In this document: in pieces, positions 2,744 through 56,214 of the stretch | Position numbering within the stretch: position 1 is the stretch's first letter | Layout of the letters: each line of letters begins with the position of its first letter | Assembly: GCF_008831285.2 (NCBI RefSeq) | Contig: NC_045150.1 | Location: 8,382,001-8,446,000, forward strand | Reading direction: 5' to 3' | Source: Nymphaea colorata | Lineage: Eukaryota > Streptophyta > Magnoliopsida > Nymphaeales > Nymphaeaceae | DNA: 64,000 bases | Translations under genes and position numbers: made by a program | Notes under the pieces: model-generated | Seen by the model: the letters and a program-made list of their open reading frames with translations, nothing else | What the model was told of the DNA's origin: nothing | The model's database searches: none

Positions 2744-2890
2744 CTTCTATCCCATTGGGGCCGCCGCCAAACAACAAAGTGAACCTGCAACCCTAGCTGC
2801 CTGTATAAAGAGTTGCAGAGACTTACCGACTGTTTGTGAGGGAGAAGGTGCAGACATGGCGAAAGAAATGAAGTGATGGGTTGTGCTTGA

Positions 2891-3027
2891 CAAGAATTGC
2901 AGGGCAATTCTTTCTTGGCAGTCACAACCCTCATTGTCCATGACTGATGAGCAGTTTCAGACAATTGACATGAGTCATGCTTGACCGGAGGGCCGACTGC
3001 CAAAGGAGAATTGCCCGGTGATTCTTG
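2891..3027 (+). ncRNA. MIR399: MIR399 precursor hairpin, copy 1
   Basis: The 3' arm contains, at 2998-3018, a 21-base sequence starting TGCCAAAGGAGAATTGCCC, which is the mature miR399 sequence with a final GG. The 5' arm (2891-2923) pairs with the 3' arm (2995-3027) along all 33 positions apart from a few wobbles and mismatches. The miR399* strand reads GGGCAATTCTTTCTTGGCA from 2902. The loop is about 70 bases and can form a small stem of its own. miR399 targets the PHO2/UBC24 transcript and so raises phosphate uptake and root-to-shoot transport when phosphate is short. A P1BS motif lies at 2736. A related hairpin follows at 7298 on the same strand, as in the tandem MIR399 arrays of other plants. 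The strand is set by the mature sequence on the 3' arm. Confidence 0.9.
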
Positions 3028-5989
3028 CGCACAGAAAGGGAATCGCGTTTCAGACTAAGTTCTCAAGAACGTCTTGTTTGAGTTCTACAGATGGTTTTGT
3101 TTTCTAGCTTAATTTCCCTCATCAAGCATCGATGCTGGCATTGGCACTATGCCCGTGTGTGTGTTAATGTGTTTGATGCTTTCCTTTCGCTGTTGTTTGT
3201 GCCCCCTTTCTTTCACTATTGAAAAACGCTTAATTTGGAGAGTGAGCTACGCACACCACCTTGTGCATGTGCATGTATGCACCCACAAAAAAAGTAAGCG
3301 AGAGTTGGAGTATTTTAAAAGTATAACAAAAAAATGTTCTTTTTAGACTTTTAAGTTTTTTCGTTACTGTTTTTATCCTTATAAAGAAAGATTTTATTTT
3401 TATAATCAAGGGTATTCTGATCATTGTATAAGACGGTGCACATTTTTTTTGTGGACAGGATGGTGCATATAACCAGCTTTGCTTAGTTTGTGAGGGCCCC
3501 AATACGCTTTAGGCCCTACCTTTACGCCAGTGGGGTCTTCAGTAGTATGTTATAAGGTGGTCTCATATTGTGTACTCTTCAGAGCCCAGGTTTCTTGTCA
3601 TGGTATGCATTCACTACTTAATAAGCTTCCTTAATTCCTCTAAATCCATACTTAATAGGCAGAAGTTTTTGTAAGGCATTATTGTAATTTCCTATTTTAT
3701 GCTATTAGTTTAATCCCCATTTTTAAGAGGGGTGGTTATCTCTTGCATTCTTTATTCTGAATTAGTAAAGAGCCCTGTGTGGCAGTGGATATAGGAGAAT
3801 TTTGGTTTTCCAACCACATAAAAATCTTTATGTATCATCATCTTCTTCTTCTTCTTCTTTTTCTTCTTCTTCTTCTCTTGAGAGAGAAAGAGAGGGCCTT
3901 GTTCCTAACAGTTTTTTGACATGTTTATGCATTGGATCACCTAACAAGGTGGTTCACCTCAATGTCGCAGTAGTTTTTTGGTTTTTTATTTTAGTCTTTA
4001 CAGAAAAAGGCATTCATTATTAATTTTTTAATTATTATCATTTTTGTTAGGCTTTTTGAAAACACACACTTAGCTTGTATTAATATACTTTCATTTTGCA
4101 TGTGCATGACTGCACCCCTTGCTTCTTGGTGCATGCTGTAGCATCCACTGTTGTTCTTCTTACCATGCACATTGCAGGTGGAGAGAAATAGAGAGGGGCA
4201 CCTAACCACACTGTAAAAATGGGGGTTTCTATCAATTTCATACATGTAAATGGGAGTGCCTCTTTTATTAGTCTACGTAATGAGGCCGCTCACAAATTTG
4301 ATAGATGTAAAGCAACCGCTCAAAAGTTGGACAGCGGTTTAGTTTGTTTCAGTAAAGAAATTAAGCAGGATATATATGAGTTGCCGTTCTCTGAATGGGC
4401 CCAACCTGAGTACTCCAGAACCAGATTTGGTAAAAAATAAAATAAAATAAATAGATCTTAACTTGGTGTTCTTACTTTTGAATAAAATAAATAAAAAAAT
4501 AAATAAATAGTCTCTACCATTTGCATTCTTACTTTTCAATGAGCAATATTCTCTGTGACAGGAGTGCATCCAAGTGCCCATGTTTAGCAGTGATTGCATT
4601 CCACGCACCTTATGCGTTTAATTAGATTAATTCAAGGATCGATTATTATGTTTTGAGCCATATAATCGCATAATGACTAAGGTTGGAATTCAGTTGAACT
4701 CTTGAACATTAATTGATTAGTGAAATGTAATTACACATGCTATTTCTCACTACAGCAGATTTTAAGATCACTGTTGCTGCTCATAGATTATTTCAGAGAC
4801 CTCTGTGATCTCTATTTCTGCAACGGCATGGCTGCAGCGCCAATCATGGACGTGGCTGCGCTCCTCTTCGTCAGCCAGCGATGCCAACTCGTCGGTGGTG
4901 TTTGACAATCACTGATGCCATAGCGACAGCAGTGTCGGAGTTTTGGGGTTTTGTTGTAGTGTCTTTTCGCAGTGAAGCTGTAACGATCCATGCTCCTAAA
5001 TTTACCTATAAATATATTAATGTTGTGCAAATGATCATACTGCATACATAATATGCATGGCGTCTTACATTATTGACACGATATCACCAAGCCCTTTTTC
5101 GAGTATCAACTACAATTAGTGCCGTGGGATATTAGATTTATCTTATAACTCTTCGTTGGCCTCACTAACAATTTCTCTCTTTTGAGTCAATGTACAACAA
5201 TGAGCTAATGAGAGAGATGAAAAAGAGTTGTTCCCGTTGCTTTACTTCAAACTAAGCCAGCCACATAGTTTCTTACTCATCAATACAATACAATAGAAAC
5301 AATTTAGGGAAAGGTTGCATCGGATCCAAATTTGATCCGACTCTTATTTTTAAGAGTTTACAACCTCAACTTTTAAATAGATTCTGCGTATATATATCAC
5401 CGTCTAATCAAGACACAATTGTTCTCTTGAGTGGCATCCATGTCAAGTGAAGGGAATCAGGTCCAAATAACCTTGGACGTTCTTTTCTTACAAAATGCAC
5501 CCATTTGGAATAATTCTAATATTCCCTTTAGAAATGTTGAAGTCTATAGAGAGAGAGTGAGAGAGAGAGTTTGTAAAATAGAAAAAAAAAACATAAGAAT
5601 GTTGCGGTGGATTTGCATCTGCAGTTTGGTAGTGCGAACAACTTCATATGGCTTTACTAATAGTATGGTAGTTCATTTCTTAGTTTTAGTTTGGTGTTCT
5701 CTCTCTCTCTCTCTGTATATATATATATATATGCTTTTAAGTGGCAATGGTTTTGGAAGAGCTGCCAGAAAAAAAAAAGCCCAGTACTTTTTTTTATGAC
5801 CAAGAAAATATGTTCAGACAGTCTGATAAGTTTAGTAAATTAATTGGTTTATCATTGAAAATGGATGTGAAAGAGTCAACATGGGAGGATATGAATTAGT
5901 CCTAAAGTGATACTGAGGGTGGCTAAATGTGAACTTAATTATCACATGTTAAGAAATTCTCAGTAATCTAACCCTATATATATGTGTAC

Positions 5990-31636: not shown

Positions 31637-33645
31637 ACACATGAAGTCTTTACAAGTCGTGACGTTCATTTTGAAGAACATGAGTTTCCTTTTTCTCGCA
31701 TCCAAGATAGTGATAGTCGGCTTGTGTTGCCTCTCCCTACACGTGAATCTCTTGAATATGAGTACATGGTTCCTAGTCTTGATTCCATATCTCACGAAAC
31801 TACCACCATATTGTCATATGAACACTCTCTGTCAACATCACCAAACAAACCTCCACCACCCACTATGCCACAACCTGACTCCAACGATACCACTGTTAGT
31901 CACCTACCATTAAGGCGTTCTACTCGGCAGTGCATGGTACCATCTCATTTACAAGACTATCGGTGCTTTTACTCTACCTGGCTCAAATCCTCTAATTTGG
32001 GTAATGGTACTAACTCTACAACACCAACACATCACCCAATGCACCATTTTCTTCATCTTGATAATTTCTCCCAATGTCACCAAGCCTTTTTAACTACTAT
32101 TCTCAACAACCGAGAACCGTCTTCTTTCAATGAGGCAATACAGTATCAGGAATGGAGAGATGCTATGGATGCTGAGCTTCAAGCGTTAGAGGCAAACTGT
32201 ACTTGGGAAATCACTTCTCTTCCACCAGGCAAAATACCCATTGGTTGTCGCTGGGTTTACAAAATCAAGTATAAAGCCGATGAATCTGTTAACAGACATA
32301 AGGCGCGACTTGTTGCTAAAGGATATACACAAACCAAAGGTATCGACTACACCGAGACCTTTTCTCCTGTTGCCAAAATTACGACTATTCGATGCCTTCT
32401 ATCCATTGCTGCTATTAAAGGGTGGTCTCTTTACCAAGTCGACGTCAATAATCCCTTTCTTCATGAAGATTTGCAAGAAGAAGTCTATATGTCTCTTCCA
32501 CCTGGTTTTACCCGACAAGGGGAAAACATTGTCTGTCGGCAAAAGAAATCTCTTTATGGGTTGAAACAGTCATCTCGGAATTGGTTTTTTAAACTCACTG
32601 AGTTCCTTCAACACCTTGATTTTTCTCAATCTAAGGCAGATTACTCCTTGTTCTCTAAGGTCAACAAGAATGACAGTATTTTTATTGTGGTATATGTTGA
32701 CGACATTATTATTGTAGGGGATAATCAACAAGTCATTGATCAGTTGAGGTCATCATCAATGATAAATTTTAATTGAAAGATTTAGGAGAACTTAAATATT
32801 TTTTGGGGATTGAAGTTGCAAGATCAAAACGTGGAATTTTTCTTTCTCAAAAGAAATATATAATGGACACTCTCCATGAAGCTGGATATATTGGGGCCAA
32901 ACCAAGTGACACACCAATGGAACAACATCTAAAGACAGATGATGAAAAATGTCAACTGTTAGAAGACCCTACTTTTTTCAAAAAAATTATTGGTCATCTA
33001 GTCTATTTGACCATCACACGACCGGATATTCTTCATAGTGTCCATATTTTAAGTCAGTTCATGGCACACCCAAGAACCACTCACTTCGAAATGGCCTTTC
33101 GCATCTTTCAATATATTAAATCATCTCTTGGACACAGTATTCTTTTATCATCTAATAGCAACATTGTTGTTAAAGGATTTTGTGACTCGGATTGGGTCTC
33201 ATGCCCAATGGCAAGGACATCAACTTCTGGATTCTGCATATTTATGAGAGACAACCCAATATCATGGAAGGTCAAGAAGCAATCCACTGTATCAAGGTCT
33301 CCAGAAGCAGAGTATAGAGCTATGACTCTAGCCACTTGTGAAATGACTTGGATAAAATATATTCTCAAATATTTTGGAATCATTCATGAGCAGCCTATGG
33401 AGTTACATTGTGACAATAATGCAGCAATACATATAGCTGCAAACCCGGTGTTTCATGAAAGAACTAAGCATATAGAGATCGACTGTCATGTTGTTCGCCA
33501 GAAAATCGAAAGTAAAGAAATCTACACCAAACACGTAAACTCTGAAAATCAAGTTGCTGATATCTTTACAAAGCCTTTAGGAAAGGAATCGTTTTTCAAA
33601 TTAAGAGGTATGTTAGCCTTAATTGACTCAGGAGCTCCAACTTAA
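31637..33645 (+). pseudogene. Copia pol remnant: integrase C terminus, reverse transcriptase, RNase H
   Basis: The frame opens at 31637 with the integrase tail (SRDVHFEEHEFPFSRI) and the basic linker (LRRSTRQ). Reverse transcriptase follows: WRDAMDAELQALEANCTWE, GCRWVYKIKYKADESV, ARLVAKGYTQ and the active-site YVDDIIIVGD near 32693. A one-base frameshift with a TGA at about 32774 separates it from the rest, which begins KDLGELKYFLGIEVARS. RNase H follows (CDSDWVSCP, SRSPEAEYRAM, CDNNAAIHIAANPVFHERTKHIEIDCH) and ends at 33645. Gag, protease and the integrase core are deleted; the join lies near 31600, after a GC-rich leader (30953-31600) of unknown content. The product cannot support transposition. 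Confidence 0.92.
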
Positions 33646-33837: not shown

Positions 33838-34962
33838 GTGGGTCCATGAATGAGTGAACTTGACTTCACTAACACGAAGAAAAAGATGTCTCACTGTAAA
33901 AATCTTTACTTATGCGTCAGGGCCTGACAAGTGATGGAACCTCGACAGCGATGCAGAAATGTAGTCGCGTTAGTGATAGTTGTTAGATTACTAACGCTGT
34001 GGTGCAACAGGAATTACAAAGAAGACGGCTTCAACGGCACACTGCCCTTGTGATAGTGATCTCTTGGCGCTCTCTAAGCAGTCTGTATGTGTTAAAGAAA
34101 ATTAACCAATTATCTTCTGCACGACCAATGCATTAGTAAGGTAAGAGAGAGAGAGAGAAGGGGGAGAGAGAAAGAGGAGATTGCCACAGAAGAAAGCAGG
34201 CATCTCAGAATAACAGAAACAAAAGAGAATAATTAGACTGCAGCAGGCTGTGACAAGGCGAAGAAAGATGTTGAAGACGCCTGCAAAAAACTGATGGGGT
34301 GATGGTTGGCGACACAAGGCTGCGGAGGACTGTGAAGGAGGTTGAGACGGAAAGGCAGGCGTCAGGTACTCAATAAATAGAAAAGTGAGGTCTTGAATCT
34401 GTCTCAGGGAGAACACAGATAGGAACATATATCTGCCCACTTGAGAGAAAAAATCAGTCCACTTAAACTTTTTTGTTAAAAAAAGAGCATACTAATATGC
34501 TTATCAATGCTAATGTAATTTAAAAGCATGCTTTAAGTCAAATTGTTTCTATGAAAATATTGAATTTTCTATTATTAGTATTGGATCTTCTATATAAACC
34601 ACTAATATTTTGGTGAATAAAAATTTAAAAAACATATTTAATCTAGGTAATTGACTGTAATATATGTTTTCATTGCAAAAAGTTATTTTGATTACCCCCT
34701 TACCTCTATACATACAACAGGTAGTATTCACCAAATCACATTTCCAACAGAGATCTAAAATCTCGACCGTCTAATACGATAGATGGATGCCAGCTTGCTA
34801 CTCAACGTTAACGAAGCACTTCCCAATCCCTGAACCTGCTATCCAGAGAATTGCTGACCAGGATCTTAAAGTGCGGATGGCACAGCCTACTACCCTCTAA
34901 AGCCACCTTTCTGAATTCTGCCGCATATCCAGACGATTTCGTTGGTAACGTCGGTTCATGAA
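33838..34962. other. Spacer and promoter of the DOT4-type gene
   Basis: Contains a short (GA)n tract (34144-34158) and AT-rich sequence; no exon recognised. The final 200 bases must include the promoter and 5' UTR of the gene starting at 34963. Confidence 0.45.
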
Positions 34963-37569
34963 ATGGAAACGCTCACCTTCCTACATCTGAATTGCCAAAT
35001 TTCCCCAATAAATGAAGGAAATTGGAAGTACCTAAGCAGGAGCGGTAGAGTCTGCTTCAAACCCAACTCGAAGCTTACATTTTCCTGTTTTTCTGCCAAA
35101 TTTTGTACGCCCATGTTGGAATCTCCATTGCCTGAAAATTTTGGTGATTGCAGAAGGCAAATTGCTAGATTTTGTGAAGCTGGTAGGATAAAAGATGCCA
35201 TGAAAGTATTCAGTGATTGTAGTAATGTACAGTTGGACGTGGATACTTACTGTAGCCTTCTTCAACTCTGTGCTGAACGTCAATCTCTTGATGATGGCAA
35301 GAGAATTGAAGCTAATGTGTGTCACTGTGGCATTGAACGAGATGGTGTCTTGGGAGCGAAGCTGGTTTTTATGTACTTAAAATGTGGGGACTTAAAAGAA
35401 GGAAGAAGGGTGTTTGATGGCATGGTGAAAAGGAGTGTCTTTCTTTGGAATCTGATCATGAATGAGTATGCAAAGGCGGGTGAGTATGAAGAGGCCGTGT
35501 TTCTCTTTGTTGAAATGCAAAGAAATGGAGTAAGGCCTGATTCTTACAGCTTTTCTGGTGTTTTGAAATGTTGTTCTGCGCTTGAGAGCATTAGAGGTGG
35601 TCAGCAGGTTCATGATTTGCTGATAAAATCGGGGTTTCATTCCTATGTCACAGTGGGTAATGCTCTTATTTCCTTTTATTCGAGATGTGGGAGGATAGAG
35701 TGCGCACAGAAAGTGTTTGCCATAATGCCCGAACGGGATGTTATATCATGGAATGCAACAACTGGTGGACTTTTGTTGAATGGTAGGGCCAACGAGGCCA
35801 TTAAATTCTTTAGAGAGATGAAGAGTTGTGGAGTTAAAGCGGATTTGGCAACTATGGTTACAGTCCTTCCAGCTTCTGCAGAGCTCGGCTATAGTTTATA
35901 CGGAAAAGAAATTCATGGGCATGCACTAAGAGTTGGTCTCAAGGAGGAGACTACTTTCTGCAACTGCTTGCTTGATATGTATGCGAAGTGTGGAAAACTG
36001 GAATATGCAATTCGAGTTTTTGACAGAATGCCACAAAAAACTGTTGTGTCTTGGACATCAATGATCTCTGGATATGCACGAGATGGGCAGTTGGAGAAAG
36101 CAATCCAATTGTTCAATGAGATGGAATTGTCAGGCGTTAGACCAGATCTGTTCACTGTTACCAGTGTTCTACATGCTTGTTCTTCTAGTGGCTCTCTTAA
36201 ATATGGGAAAGATATACACGGATATATCAAAAGGAACGGCTTTGAATCTAATTTATTTGTTGCTAATGCACTCATGGACATGTATGCGAAGTGCAGAAGC
36301 ATGGAGGATGCGCAATCAATTTTTGATAGGATGAGTGTTCGGGACATAGTGTCGTGGAACACGGTTATAGGTGGCTATGCGAAGAACCATCTTCCAAATG
36401 AAGCGCTCATCCTGTTCAGCCAAATGCAGAAAGAAGTAAAGACCAATGGAGTAACCATGGCATGCACTCTTCCTGCTTGTGCAAGTCTGTCGTCTCTGGA
36501 CCGAGGGAGGGAAATCCATGGCCACATTGTAAGAAATGGGTATCACTCAGATGGTTTCATTAATAATGCTCTTATCGACATGTATGCCAAATGTGGTGAC
36601 CTTGATGTTGCCAAAGCCCTCTTTGATAGAATGTCAAACCGCGATCTTGTTTCATGGACTGCTATGATCGCTGGCTATGGTATGAATGGCTTTGGCGAGG
36701 AAGCCATTTCCCTCTTCAATCAGATGAAAGAAGCAGGCATAAGGCCTGATGAAGTTTCATTCATACCTCTTCTCTATGCTTGCAGCCACACAGGCTTAGT
36801 TGAAGAGGGGTGGAGACTCTTTGATTCTATGAGAAATGACCATGGCATTGTGCCAAAGCTTGAGCATTATGCTTGTATGGTCGATCTTCTAGGTCGTGCA
36901 GGGCAGTTGAAGAAAGCTTACAAGTTCATCCAAGAAATGCCAGTCAAGCCAGACTCCACAGTGTGGGGTGCACTGCTTTGTGCATGCAGACTTCATCGAG
37001 ATGTCAAACTGGCAGAAAAAGTCGCAGAGGAAGTTTTTGAGCTAGAACCAGAAAATACAGGGTTTTATGTACTTCTATCAAACATATACGCAGAGGCTGA
37101 GAAGTGGGAAGGTGTGAAAAAATTAAGAGCTGAAATCACTAGCCGCAGGCTGAAAAAGAACCCAGGATGCAGTTGGATTGAGATCAAAGGAAAGACCAAC
37201 TTATTCGTTGCTGGGGATAGGTCAAAATTGAACTCCAAAGACATACAGACGCTGTTAAAGAAGGTGAAGGCCAAGATGAAGGAGGAAGGCTATACTCCTA
37301 ACAAGAGATATGCTCTAATCGACTTGGATGATCAAGGGAAAGAAGATGCTCTCTGTGATCACAGTGAGAAGTTGGCAATGGCTTTTGGTCTGCTGAACTC
37401 ACAGCAGGGTAAGCCGATACGGGTGACCAAGAACCTTAGAGTGTGCGGCGACTGCCATGAAGTTGCAAAGTTCATGAGCAAGAGCTATGGGAGAGAAATC
37501 GTCTTGAGAGATTCTAGCAGGTTTCACCATTTCAAGGATGGGAGATGTTCTTGCAGAGGCTACTGGTGA
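34963..37569 (+). CDS. DOT4: DYW-class pentatricopeptide repeat protein, DOT4-like plastid RNA editing factor
   Basis: One uninterrupted exon of 868 residues (Arabidopsis DOT4: 871). The first in-frame ATG is at 34963 (METLTFLHLN). The N terminus (to about 55) is a plausible plastid transit peptide. P-L-S repeat triplets then run to about residue 690, visible as repeated NALIDMYAKCGDL, FDRM, DLVSWTAMI, GYGMNGFGEEAISLFNQM and GIRPDEVSF blocks. E/E+ motifs (GCSWIEIKGK) and a full DYW cytidine-deaminase domain follow. The catalytic HSE is at about 800-802, the zinc cysteines are in CGDCH (828-832), and the HHFKDGRCSC end closes with GYW rather than DYW; Arabidopsis DOT4 ends GFW. PPR repeats bind a specific RNA and the DYW domain converts C to U. 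DOT4 edits plastid rpoC1 and affects leaf and vein patterning. Its neighbour RLP51 is the same as in Arabidopsis, which supports orthology. Confidence 0.93.
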   Translation: METLTFLHLNCQISPINEGNWKYLSRSGRVCFKPNSKLTFSCFSAKFCTPMLESPLPENFGDCRRQIARFCEAGRIKDAMKVFSDCSNVQLDVDTYCSLLQLCAERQSLDDGKRIEANVCHCGIERDGVLGAKLVFMYLKCGDLKEGRRVFDGMVKRSVFLWNLIMNEYAKAGEYEEAVFLFVEMQRNGVRPDSYSFSGVLKCCSALESIRGGQQVHDLLIKSGFHSYVTVGNALISFYSRCGRIECAQKVFAIMPERDVISWNATTGGLLLNGRANEAIKFFREMKSCGVKADLATMVTVLPASAELGYSLYGKEIHGHALRVGLKEETTFCNCLLDMYAKCGKLEYAIRVFDRMPQKTVVSWTSMISGYARDGQLEKAIQLFNEMELSGVRPDLFTVTSVLHACSSSGSLKYGKDIHGYIKRNGFESNLFVANALMDMYAKCRSMEDAQSIFDRMSVRDIVSWNTVIGGYAKNHLPNEALILFSQMQKEVKTNGVTMACTLPACASLSSLDRGREIHGHIVRNGYHSDGFINNALIDMYAKCGDLDVAKALFDRMSNRDLVSWTAMIAGYGMNGFGEEAISLFNQMKEAGIRPDEVSFIPLLYACSHTGLVEEGWRLFDSMRNDHGIVPKLEHYACMVDLLGRAGQLKKAYKFIQEMPVKPDSTVWGALLCACRLHRDVKLAEKVAEEVFELEPENTGFYVLLSNIYAEAEKWEGVKKLRAEITSRRLKKNPGCSWIEIKGKTNLFVAGDRSKLNSKDIQTLLKKVKAKMKEEGYTPNKRYALIDLDDQGKEDALCDHSEKLAMAFGLLNSQQGKPIRVTKNLRVCGDCHEVAKFMSKSYGREIVLRDSSRFHHFKDGRCSCRGYW

Positions 37570-50465: not shown

Positions 50466-53400
50466 TCAACAATCAATAGAAATACAATTCTTCATAGGCA
50501 CGGAGTCATCCTTGCTCAAGAATGGATCAATCTTGACCCAAAGAAGTGAGAAGACAGATGCCAATAGAACAGACCAGAGAACAACAATGGTTGGTGTCCT
50601 GTTCTGCCTCCCCATCAAGCCTTTCAAGAACGGGTACAGATGAAGGATCACCCATAAGGCAAAGAAGACCTTGCCAAAGAGTGGCCCCCATGCTTCATAG
50701 CCACTATTAAGAGCATCTGAAAAGCCAGCCACAATCCCCACCAAATTGACCACAAGAATGGTGGTTGGTGGGATCAGAAGAGTTGTCCATTTGAAAACAT
50801 ATAGTTCACCAAACTCTGCATCATCAGAAGCTTTTGCAGTAACAGTGAAGTTGGTGTCGAAACCAGCTGTGACCTTCAGAATTCCCTGGAAGACTGCAAA
50901 GAGGTGGGCAGATACGCCACCAATCACCCAGAACTGTTCATTCCTCCACCACTCTTCAATGCCCACACCACTCCATCGAAGCTCAAGCACACTGGTTAAG
51001 ATGATGGAGATGAAGAGGCAGAGGAACAGGACGCTTGCTACGTTGGAGAGCTGGAAAGAAAACGAAAGGAAAATTAGATTATACACACCTAAACAATGGC
51101 AATCCCAAGCATGAAGGTTATTTTAGAAACGATTTTATCAACTGGATTTAGGAACCATAAGTTGTTCGCCAATCTACACAAGCAACAAACTTCAGTTTAG
51201 AAGCTACGAACTTCCACCACATAACTTAATCAAGATTGTTACTGGGGTTTGACAAAAATTAAGTTGAGATTATTAGCCCAGTGCTTCTGCAAAACAAGTT
51301 TTCCTTAAGGAGAAAAACTTAGTGTGTGAAAATGAAAACTAAAATTCTTCCACAGCCTTTTTTTCTGAAGATACCAAAAATATTCCAGAAAAGCATCACT
51401 GAATTTCCATGGATACAGTTTTCGGTAGATTGGATGGAAAATGATACTCTATATTCAGTAAATCAACCACAACTAGATGGCTGGAAGATGTGCACTTACA
51501 GTTGGTATAATGAACTTCCCAGTAAGTAGACAGATAGCTGGAAGTGAGCAATAAGCAATAAGGGGCAACGAAGTGAATGGATATACGATAGTGTTTATAT
51601 ATGCTAATCTTTGGAGCCATTTGAGACGACCACCACCAACTCCATACCAAAGAGGACAATGCCTGCTGAAGAAAATTTCAACAGACCCAAGTGCCCAACG
51701 AAGAACCTGATGGAGTCTATCAGAAAGATTGATGGGTGCAGACCCTTTGAATGCAGGCCGCAGAGGCATGCAATAGATGGATCTCCATCCACGACAGTGC
51801 ATCTTGAAACCAGTCAAAATGTCCTCCGTTACGGAGCCATATATCCACCCAATCTGAAAACAGGGAAAGAAAACATGAAATCATCTGTGTAGGAGAAAAA
51901 CGAAGCAACAAAAATTAGATAATGATGGGTAGTAAGTCTAAAGGGATTATATAATGTTGACATTGCCTTACTATAATACCATAGTAATGAACTTAAAGTA
52001 CATAAAAGAATTTTGGTGGGAAGAAGTGACAATAAGTCGTATATGAAACTTTATTCAATTTCATAATCAATGATTGGTGGTTGTTTTGCTTCTGGAGATG
52101 ACGGATTGAAGCAATTTATTCTAGAGGAATGCCTATTTTTGTATGGTTATTCCGATAAAATGGTGGAACAATAAAAAGATCAAGTCCTTGGCAAAATTAA
52201 AGCAACATAAAACCGAGAAAATGCTGAAGTTCATGCCTGCATCATCAACACTAGTCGCAAGGGTAGGAAAGCTTACCACAATCAGTCTATCCCTATTTTT
52301 TAGCAAAATGAATAGGAAAAGAAAAGAAAGAATAAAAGCAAGATTATTCAACGAGGCACCTAAGCAAGCCAAAAGATGTCATGAGGCGAGCAAAATGTAT
52401 GATTTGGATGAAGAAGAATCACCTCCTTCCCCCACTCTGTTTTCTCCTCATAGCCACAGCTAATAACATGGATTGCTTCCATAATAAGCATTGCTGGATT
52501 TGCAGACTCGGGAACTCCCCCATACTCCATCATGGTAGATTCAATGAATACAGATGACAGGCCAAACGTCTTCTCAAAACTCATTTGAGATATCAACAGT
52601 GATCGTTCATAGTCATCATAATCTGTACAAGGGTAATTCAGTCAGATCCTGAATTAGATAATAATATCCAAATTCAAATGATTAGGCTTACTATCGATCT
52701 CTTGAAGGTTGAAGATAGCAGCATCAAGATCCTCCCTCTTTGATTCCCTGTAGAGCTCCTTCTCATCATCAGTTTTCTTTGAGCCAGAGCAGCAGCAGCA
52801 ACAGCAGCAGCACAAAGAACAAGATGATGAACGTTTACGGACTATAGGCAACGATTGAGGTCCATAACCATAAAGAGCTTGTCTGTTGAAAACACATCCT
52901 GTTCCCACATATACTGGTCCTTGAATACCATCTAATCCTTTCATGTTGACCTGCAACATTTGCAAGATATTACCCACGGTGGTCAAATGCGCACTGTAAT
53001 AGTAGAACAAGCACAAACCATTTTATTTATGTCCGGAACTTACATCAAAGAACACGGTGTTTCGGTTAGCATAACGATCACTTCGATCAATGCCATCAAA
53101 CCTCTGAGGAAACTGAATATAGCAAATGTCTCTACCCATTTGTGGGTCCATCATAAAACACATAGCCTCCCGAACAGCTTTGCTGTTGTTTACATAGTGG
53201 TCGCAGTCAAGGTTCAGAATGTATGGTGCATTTGTGAGAACAGCAGAGACTCGAACCTTTAACAGAATCACATAGAAATTAAATTCAGATCGTTCTCTAA
53301 TGTTGTTCGACATACTGTTTAGGTTTGAAAAGTTTACCAAAGCATTCATTGCTCCAGCCTTTTTGTGGTGTTGGTAACCAGGCCTCTTCTCTCTAGATAC

Positions 53401-56214
53401 ATATACAAGCCGGGGAAGCTCGTTATCTTCTATGTCATGTGCACCATTATGGCCAAGAAAGACCTGCATACATTAATTGCCATACTACTCAAGCACAAGC
53501 CAAACTGTCTGCACTATATTAGGCAGTTTTTCCTTTTCCGACTTACTGAGTATGTTCCATATGCAGTTTGCTTAAGAGGGGCATGATGGAAATGATATGT
53601 AGTAAGAACTTCATGACCAATTGTGGTCCCGAGCATAAAAAGAAATTTAACAAAAAGCTAAAGACTTCCGGAACTGCATTGTGATAGACAAGCACAGAAT
53701 TTATGGTTCGGTCTGCTTTTTCCAGGCTCAGATATGTGCCATCTCCATGTAGAGAAAAATATGCATGAAAAAAAATAATGATCTCAAATCCTTGGCACGA
53801 CAAGTAACTAGTCTACCTGAATCATTCCTGGATGGTCTCTTGGATTATTCCCTGGCCACGGTGTTCCATCCTGCATTATCCAGCCCTCATCAGGGGTTTT
53901 CTGAGCTTTAGCTACCAATGCATTTATTCTGACTTTGTATTCTTCGTACTCGCGCTGGAAAAGAAAAAGGAATCAAATTCAATTAGTTATGGCACGACAG
54001 TGAGCCTTGGAGAAAGACTTTTCTAGCTCATTTGCAATTTTCCCTGTGTAAGCATAAAAAGGGAAATGCTTACTTTCATTGCCCTGCGCTCCTTGACAAA
54101 AGAAGGTTGTACTTTATCCTTTAAATAGTCAATCTTCTGTGAAAAATAAAATTCAGGTGCCCGAGGCTCTATAGAGTACTTTTTACAAAAGGAACCCATT
54201 TTCTTGCAAACTCGGATGTTTCTGAGAGTGTTTCAAATGTCAGCATAGCAGCGCCATCATCTGAAACATAACAAGAGACTTTCTGGACAGGATAGTCAAC
54301 TGCAAGGATTGATAGGACAGTGTTTGCTGTGACCAGTGGTGGTTCTTTTAATGGATCGACAGTACTAACAAAAAAGTCCACAGCTGCAAAATCACAGATT
54401 CCACCTTCTCTTTCATACCTAAAATCAATTAACAACAAACGTATCACTAGTTCAGGTAAATATTTGTCTTCACTTGTAGCTTAAAACAATAACAAAAATA
54501 GTGTGTAGTAATTAGTGTAGGTGTATAACCTTTCATCACCAGCTAGTTGTTTCCTATTTCGTAATGAGCAGCCTAAAAGAACTGATGCTCTGTGCAGATA
54601 CTAACAACACCCACCAATTGAATAATTTACACTTAAATCATTGTGTTCCAAAGACTATATGGAAGCAGATTGCACAGCAACCCATCGTTTAAATACGCTT
54701 CATATATCATCCTGAAATTCATACGTAGATTCGTTTTTGAAGCCGTACCTTAATGATAACCTGTCAATGTATGTGTCTCTCTCAATTGGAGTCCATTTGG
54801 GAAATTGATCCAACACCCAAGAAAAGGCGAACCAGACCTCGCATATAATTGAAGTGAGCCAGAGGCCATAAGCACTATCAACAGGGTTGGTTACTCTATA
54901 TTGGAAGAAGAACGCAAGAACCAACAATCTCATAATAATGACAAATCTGTAAGGCGTAAGCTTGTTCTTAGAAATTGGAACGGTTATTGAAAGTGGTTCT
55001 TGAGCCTCTGAAATCCTGCATATAACATCATAATTTTCTATAAATAATAATCATTTATGCTAATTAATGAAATTAATGGCATTTAAATGGTGAGGATGAT
55101 CAACCTTTGATACTTTCAAACTAGTAAGTCATGCAATGATGCTTTTTTATGATAAGAGGAAAAGAGACCCAAAAACTTTATTTACCGATCATCGTTCATG
55201 CGTTGTTCAGGTGGCAATTGAGCTTCTTTTGGGGCAGTAGGAACCTTTTTCTTCTTGCTTTTGTTGTCCCTCCAGCTCTCAATTCTGTTCTTCCATAACG
55301 GGTTTCCAGAATCACCATTTGATTCTATAAGAGATCACGTAAAGAAATCAGGAAATTTCCATGACACAACGAAGGCAATAAAATTGCACACAAAAAGGAG
55401 GCATCTAGAAGAAAACAGCTACCAGTTTCAATAGCAGATAAATTGCTCATTTGCCTTCGATGGCCTTCTTTGTCCTGTGCATTTACATTTTTCTTAAAAT
55501 AAGGTTGTTGAACAACATATTTCTATGGCAAATAGGTCCAAACATAATCAAACGGAATATAAATCTCATTCCTCATTGCTAATACAAGAACCAGAAGAAC
55601 TAATGGGATTTGCGAGCCGAATACCTGCGGTTCCTGTAGATGAGCTCCTAAATTCAAACCTTTGGCAGAGGCGGCTTTTTCAACCTCTTGCTCAGCATCA
55701 GGGCCCGTCCTTTCTGCAATTTTTTACAATATCCTGTCAGAGGCAGTTCATGGAATGTCTAAAATTGGCAGGTACAGTAGCCGGCGAATCAACTCAAATT
55801 TTTACAGCATTGCACCAAGTACCCGAATTCCAAAACCTGAGAAGAGACCTCATAAACGGCAGACTAATTATATTTTCGCAAACAATTCCATATAGGTGGT
55901 AGCTAACTACATTCATGTCGATAATTCCTTACAATGGTGTTCGTTAAACGCACTGAAAATCTCGAAAAAGTTCACTATGCGGCCATTCCTAACTGCGTTC
56001 TTTTCCAAGATTTCGACCAATGACCTTCGAGGAAGGAGTACGGGGCGCCGCACTGCAAGCATGTTCGTCCTCCATCGGCTTTGGATTCATGGTCGACGCA
56101 GGAGCGGCAGATGGGAAAATTGCACTGCCTGCAGGCGACGAAGACGTTGCCGTCCGGCGAGAAGCCTACGGCCTCGGCACAGACGTTGCAGGAAGGAACC
56201 CTCGACTCCATCAT
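50466..56214 (-). CDS. CESA8: Cellulose synthase catalytic subunit 8 (secondary wall), with two single-base frameshifts
   Basis: Thirteen exons: 56025-56214, 55625-55713, 55423-55474 (or to 55492), 55186-55324, 54749-55015, 54074-54418, 53817-53955, 53338-53463, 53044-53256, 52692-52950, 52423-52622, 51500-51853 and 50466-51050. The net length is 985 residues, as in Arabidopsis CESA8/IRX1. It starts MMESR, shared with that protein. Domains: RING zinc finger with four CxxC pairs (9-57); first membrane helices (exon 5); catalytic SDDG (exon 6), LDCDHY (exon 9), TEDILTG and QVLRW (exon 12); C-terminal helices; end ISIDC. It makes beta-1,4-glucan from UDP-glucose at the plasma membrane with CESA4 and CESA7. 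In exon 6 an A run (54187-54190) is one base short, giving a TAG at 54169-54171; in exon 7 a T run (53940-53942) is one base long. Intron phases confirm both. As it stands, translation stops near residue 328. Real mutations or homopolymer errors cannot be told apart here. Confidence 0.93.
52789..52812 (-). repeat. CAG/TGC trinucleotide repeat encoding eight cysteines in CESA8
   Basis: Eight consecutive codons, seven TGC and one TGT, encode Cys8 in the class-specific (VR2) region, after SSSCSL and before [11 protein letters not shown]. Arabidopsis CESA8 has a shorter CCC here. Cysteines in this region of CESA proteins are S-acylated and needed for membrane delivery of the complex. Confidence 0.9.

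Follow-up and report, generated by a model that had tools for sequence, protein, structure and literature searches.

A single frame break in the CESA8 gene of Nymphaea colorata is very probably a residual homopolymer error of the assembly

This study was concerned with whether the secondary-wall cellulose synthase CESA8 of the water lily Nymphaea colorata has truly lost its reading frame, or whether the interruption seen in its sequence is a fault of the assembly. The window analysed is the whole 64,000 nucleotide stretch of contig NC_045150.1 from 8,382,001 to 8,446,000, and coordinates are positions in this window unless another locus is named. According to the available portion of its published description, the N. 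colorata assembly comprises 409 Mb in 804 scaffolds and 14 pseudo-chromosomes, and was produced from PacBio RSII reads with Canu, Arrow and Pilon (PMC7015852). No report of a CESA8 break in Nymphaea was seen in the titles and opening lines of abstracts of the literature searched, and the word “cellulose” does not occur in the main texts of PMC7015852 and PMC13254204.

Gene structure, class and copy number

The minus strand from 56214 to 50466 carries a full-length CESA8 orthologue of 13 coding exons, as established by reading the gene exon by exon. Exon 1 (56025-56214), delimited by its translation, begins with ATG ATG and encodes the N-terminal cysteine-rich zinc-finger region. Exon 2 (55625-55713) has the least certain border, its start being 55713 in the gene model and 55686 in the alignment with the solved structure 6wlb_A, in the same phase. 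The gene model and the spliced alignment were both used to place the exons that follow: exon 3 (55423-55474), exon 4 (55186-55324), exon 5 (54749-55015), which by analogy with the family presumably encodes the first two transmembrane helices, and exon 6 (54074-54418), with the first catalytic motif, DDG. Exon 7 (53817-53954) is supported in addition by its match to 6wlb_A. Exon 8 (53338-53463) is followed by exon 9 (53044-53256) with the catalytic DCD motif, exon 10 (52692-52950) with the class-specific region, exon 11 (52423-52622), exon 12 (51500-51853) with the catalytic TED and QVLRW motifs, and exon 13 (50466-51050), which encodes the C-terminal membrane part and ends in CISIDC and a stop; these borders likewise come from the gene model and the spliced alignment. 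All 12 introns are GT-AG. The original prediction described the gene outside its indels as intact, and this was borne out by the introns, by the retention of all four catalytic motifs and by the lack of any further break.

A CESA is defined by a zinc finger, three catalytic aspartates and a QxxRW motif, and each of these features was found in the exon translations. The protein matched residues 1-985 of 6wlb_A at 1830.6 bits and 78.5% identity, and the next solved CESA reached 1520.3 bits. The listing names 6wlb_A only as “Cellulose synthase”; we take it to be poplar CESA8. In an IQ-TREE analysis of 12 CESA rows, the window gene and 6wlb_A formed a clade with support of 100/100, apart from the remaining ten. 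The window gene shares with 6wlb_A the DDG, DCD, TED and QVLRW motifs and the CISIDC C-terminus. Two differences were seen. The class-specific region in exon 10 (minus strand) has a stretch of eight cysteines, longer than that of 6wlb_A, and the frame of the water lily gene, as assembled, is not uninterrupted but is broken by one absent base (-1) in exon 6.

The relatives of the gene were surveyed across 407,766,735 bases in 783 contigs. A whole-genome DNA search with 53800-54700 as the query returned 12 matches: the window matched itself at 100%, and the other eleven were CESA or CslD pieces at 71-79%. The search found no second CESA8 copy and no alternative haplotype contig. A PF03552 search, in which 62 of 109 candidates were scored so that all counts are lower bounds, identified at least nine CESA loci, a pair of CESA-like fragments, and CslD and further Csl genes. 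Among these loci, L014 groups in the 12-row tree with 7d5k, which we take to be cotton CESA7, and L015 stands alone and is presumably CESA4-like, judged by its C-terminal ending. As far as the DNA and family searches reach, CESA8 is apparently single in the assembly. It had been suggested that an intact second CESA8, along with reads that agree with the break, would make the window gene a pseudogene; since the search found no such copy on the genome, the data do not support a pseudogene accompanied by an intact gene.

Other features were observed in passing. L017 (C1:37273000-37280000) and L018 (C5:11962500-11969500) are isolated CESA fragments around the exon of the TED and QxxRW motifs; both are L015-like by eye, with the rest of the gene absent within the 7 kb examined. 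The motif CTTNAAAGCNA, assumed here to be a secondary-wall promoter element, matched three times in the window against 1.33 expected, with no match within 4 kb upstream of CESA8. The plus strand of the window also contains a MIR399 microRNA precursor at 2890-3028 (61.1 bits, gathering score 57) and a Copia-type retrotransposon fragment (RVT_2) at 31637-33642, whose reverse transcriptase changes frame near 32773.

The frame break and the state of the gene

Exon 6 (54418-54074, minus strand) measures 345 nt, and 346 are required by the frame. The sequence and the alignment both place the missing base in CC-TTTT-GT at 54190-54187 (C13:8436187-8436190), where four T's, or four A's on the plus strand, stand in place of the five that the frame needs, a net change of -1. 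Beyond the break, the zero frame runs into a TAG at 54171-54169, for a predicted product of 328 aa with seven exon junctions still downstream. This confirms the original prediction with regard to exon 6, which was said to lack one base of the homopolymer at 54187-54190 and to reach a stop at 54169.

The position of the break does not depend on a single comparison. A spliced, frame-aware alignment gave one -1 step at 54189/54188 and no stops against each of four references that exclude the gene itself: 6wlb_A (972 aligned codons) and the same-genome models L015 (945), L014 (953) and L011 (863). The same break had come out of an earlier spliced alignment, which is circular in that the joined translation of the gene served as its reference. 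The four-reference run agrees with it except at the acceptor of intron 1 and, for the more distant L015 and L014, at some introns before exon 6. In addition, the homologous 30-nt segment is unbroken in all eight other CESA genes of the genome, where it encodes K/R-W-V-P-F-C-K-K.

The original prediction paired the exon 6 deletion with an opposite one-base insertion at 53940-53942 in exon 7. Of this pair only the deletion was recovered, once by each of the four references, and the extra base is absent. Exon 7 is 138 nt long, follows a phase-0 intron, aligns ungapped with 6wlb_A and is in frame for all four references. The coding exons total 2957 nt, or 3n+2, and thus the break is uncompensated. 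For the same reason, the net length that was taken to equal a full CESA8 holds, at 985 aa, only when the absent position is allowed for. The coding sequence contains 37 homopolymer runs of four or more, and the lesion site is therefore an ordinary one for a length error.

The gene was also assessed for signs of decay with the tree and with counts of unusual residues, both based on the 732 columns that have a residue in each of the 12 rows. On its end branch the gene has 0.16 changes per column, compared with 0.19 for 6wlb_A. At columns where the other 11 rows agree, the window gene deviates in 7 of 392; the same measure gives 11 of 396 for 6wlb_A, 13 of 398 for L014, 14 of 399 for L015, and 0 to 6 of 385-391 for the other eight rows. 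The short branch, the few deviations and the lack of a further lesion give no sign of decay or relaxed constraint, although a lesion that arose within the last few hundred thousand years would escape such a test. In contrast, a decayed CslD copy, L041, has six frame breaks in both directions and two internal stops. This copy lies on the minus strand at G000:C12:19973500-19979500, about 20 kb from the open CslD gene L039.

Frame faults elsewhere in the assembly

Several unrelated conserved genes of the assembly contain breaks of a similar kind. For example, an intronless glucan-synthase (callose synthase) gene, L031 (G000:C1:38994500-39004000, minus strand), is open over 1817 aligned codons apart from two -1 breaks, both of which adjoin G runs by eye, and has no internal stop. 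The reference for this alignment was assembled from the open pieces of L031 itself; independent evidence for the second break comes from two PF02364 matches that lie in different frames and overlap on the DNA. These two breaks are likely the same kind of assembly fault as the CESA8 lesion. Another example is L048 (G000:C3:23201495-23204428, minus strand), a DYW-PPR gene that can be read through only by taking six frame steps in succession, each of -1, and whose pieces join without any nonsense change. By eye, five of the six steps amount to one base apparently lost from a homopolymer of two to five bases, and the sixth is unclear.

L048 came from a survey in which 150 DYW hits were scored from 211 candidates, all on C1-C14. 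Open frames of at least 485 aa held 138 of the 150, and the other 12 were in frames of less than 450 aa. Seven of these 12 short-frame hits were examined, picked for their shortness, and they consequently show that breaks occur, not how often. Besides L048, L046 has two breaks, -2 and -1 by eye, and L047 has several of mixed direction. L045, with a larger deletion and a nonsense change by eye, looks like a real pseudogene. L044, L049 and L050 have no adjoining PPR frame and are uninformative on breaks.

The eight other CESA genes contain no breaks over 7492 aligned codons; for three of them the alignment starts inside the reference, at residue 117 for L009 and L011 and at residue 34 for L012. 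For the five CslD genes L036-L040, the aligner returned five breaks, in L036, L038, L039 and L040, at reference residues 311-323 or 610. These were dropped because the joined L040 reference held intron-derived residues there, and the long open pieces support this decision. A further callose synthase set (L032-L035, L042 and L043) consists of six multi-exon genes that were partly covered with a distant reference; breaks appeared only in L033, where two were not counted because of their closeness to predicted splice sites. Within the window, a DYW-PPR gene at 34915-37566 (plus strand) is uninterrupted over 884 codons and an LRR frame over 504 codons.

Taken as a whole, the assembly apparently makes small deletion errors in places. 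If a few per cent of genes were faulty, an assumed rate, one broken gene among nine CESAs would be unsurprising.

Origin of the break

The CESA8 break is very likely a residual homopolymer-deletion error in the assembly. A sequencing or assembly error is favored for several reasons. First, the gene has a single lesion. Secondly, the lesion is a one-base change inside a homopolymer, the T run at 54190-54187. Third, constraint on the gene is undiminished. Lastly, comparable deletions are present in other conserved genes, two frame breaks each in L031 and L046 and six in L048, with the bases concerned judged by eye. Short homopolymer deletions are a usual residual consensus error in PacBio RSII data. 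A single-base deletion in a homopolymer of an otherwise intact gene also resembles the homopolymer-length errors of long-read assemblies, which are said to be the most common kind in long-read-only bacterial assemblies, according to the portion of that report available (PMC8812927). The original prediction offered a truly broken gene and sequencing errors as its two readings; the evidence favors the latter, although the premise of two compensating indels was wrong.

Under such an error, the plant itself would hold an ordinary, functional and apparently single-copy CESA8. The assembly would have lost one base of the T homopolymer in exon 6, the reads would presumably carry the full run, and short-read polishing would have missed the site. 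Several observations stand against this account. Faults of this kind are not everywhere, as all eight other CESAs are unbroken and 138 of 150 scored DYW hits lie in open frames of at least 485 aa, and the DYW-PPR and LRR frames of the window itself are uninterrupted. Short-read polishing, as given in the available portion of the assembly description, should have repaired a unique exon (PMC7015852). Finally, the PPR examples were picked for their short frames, and both they and the broken callose synthase gene may be true pseudogenes.

The strongest alternative is that the lesion is a real and very recent loss-of-function allele of CESA8, either heterozygous and captured when the assembly was collapsed, or fixed in the plant that was sequenced. 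The assembled sequence is indeed broken without compensation, the other eight CESA genes in this assembly contain no break, and, at typical mutation rates, no other trace would be expected of a lesion that arose less than about a million years ago. Such an allele is nevertheless improbable. The gene shows no second lesion and no relaxation of constraint, and similar small deletions are found in unrelated conserved genes of the assembly. Moreover, no second CESA8 was found, so that a fixed null would remove the whole class. The three secondary-wall CESA classes are nonredundant in Arabidopsis, in the available portion of one report (PMC6508838). Were the null allele real, its transcript, with a stop in exon 6 and seven junctions downstream, would be a target of nonsense-mediated decay, and any protein made would end after 328 aa, retaining the zinc finger but, of the catalytic motifs, only DDG. 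A water lily with a null of its only CESA8 on at least one chromosome would then have to build its secondary walls either with only CESA4 and CESA7 or with the product of the remaining allele, which we consider unlikely.

An older loss, in which CESA8 became dispensable in the water lily lineage, for example together with a reduction of the xylem, is far less probable still. It would agree with the frame break in the only CESA8 found. However, the gene has a shorter end branch than 6wlb_A, deviates at only 7 of 392 otherwise uniform columns and has one lesion in 2957 nt, and a truly decayed gene such as L041 looks quite different. The observed constraint nearly excludes an old pseudogene. Least credible of all is a restoration of the frame by programmed ribosomal frameshifting or alternative splicing, with which a single break and nothing further would agree, but inspection by eye shows the site to lack a canonical zero-frame slippery heptamer, skipping exon 6 would lose DDG and, from the exon phases, still break the frame, and the segment is plainly coded in the eight other CESAs.

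The CESA8 break is thus, in all likelihood, not a real feature of the plant. Taken at face value, it would lead comparative studies to record that an early-branching flowering plant has lost a secondary-wall cellulose synthase. Attributing the break to one homopolymer position, in a gene otherwise under constraint and an assembly with similar faults in other genes, guards against such a false claim of gene loss and flags those genes for equal caution.
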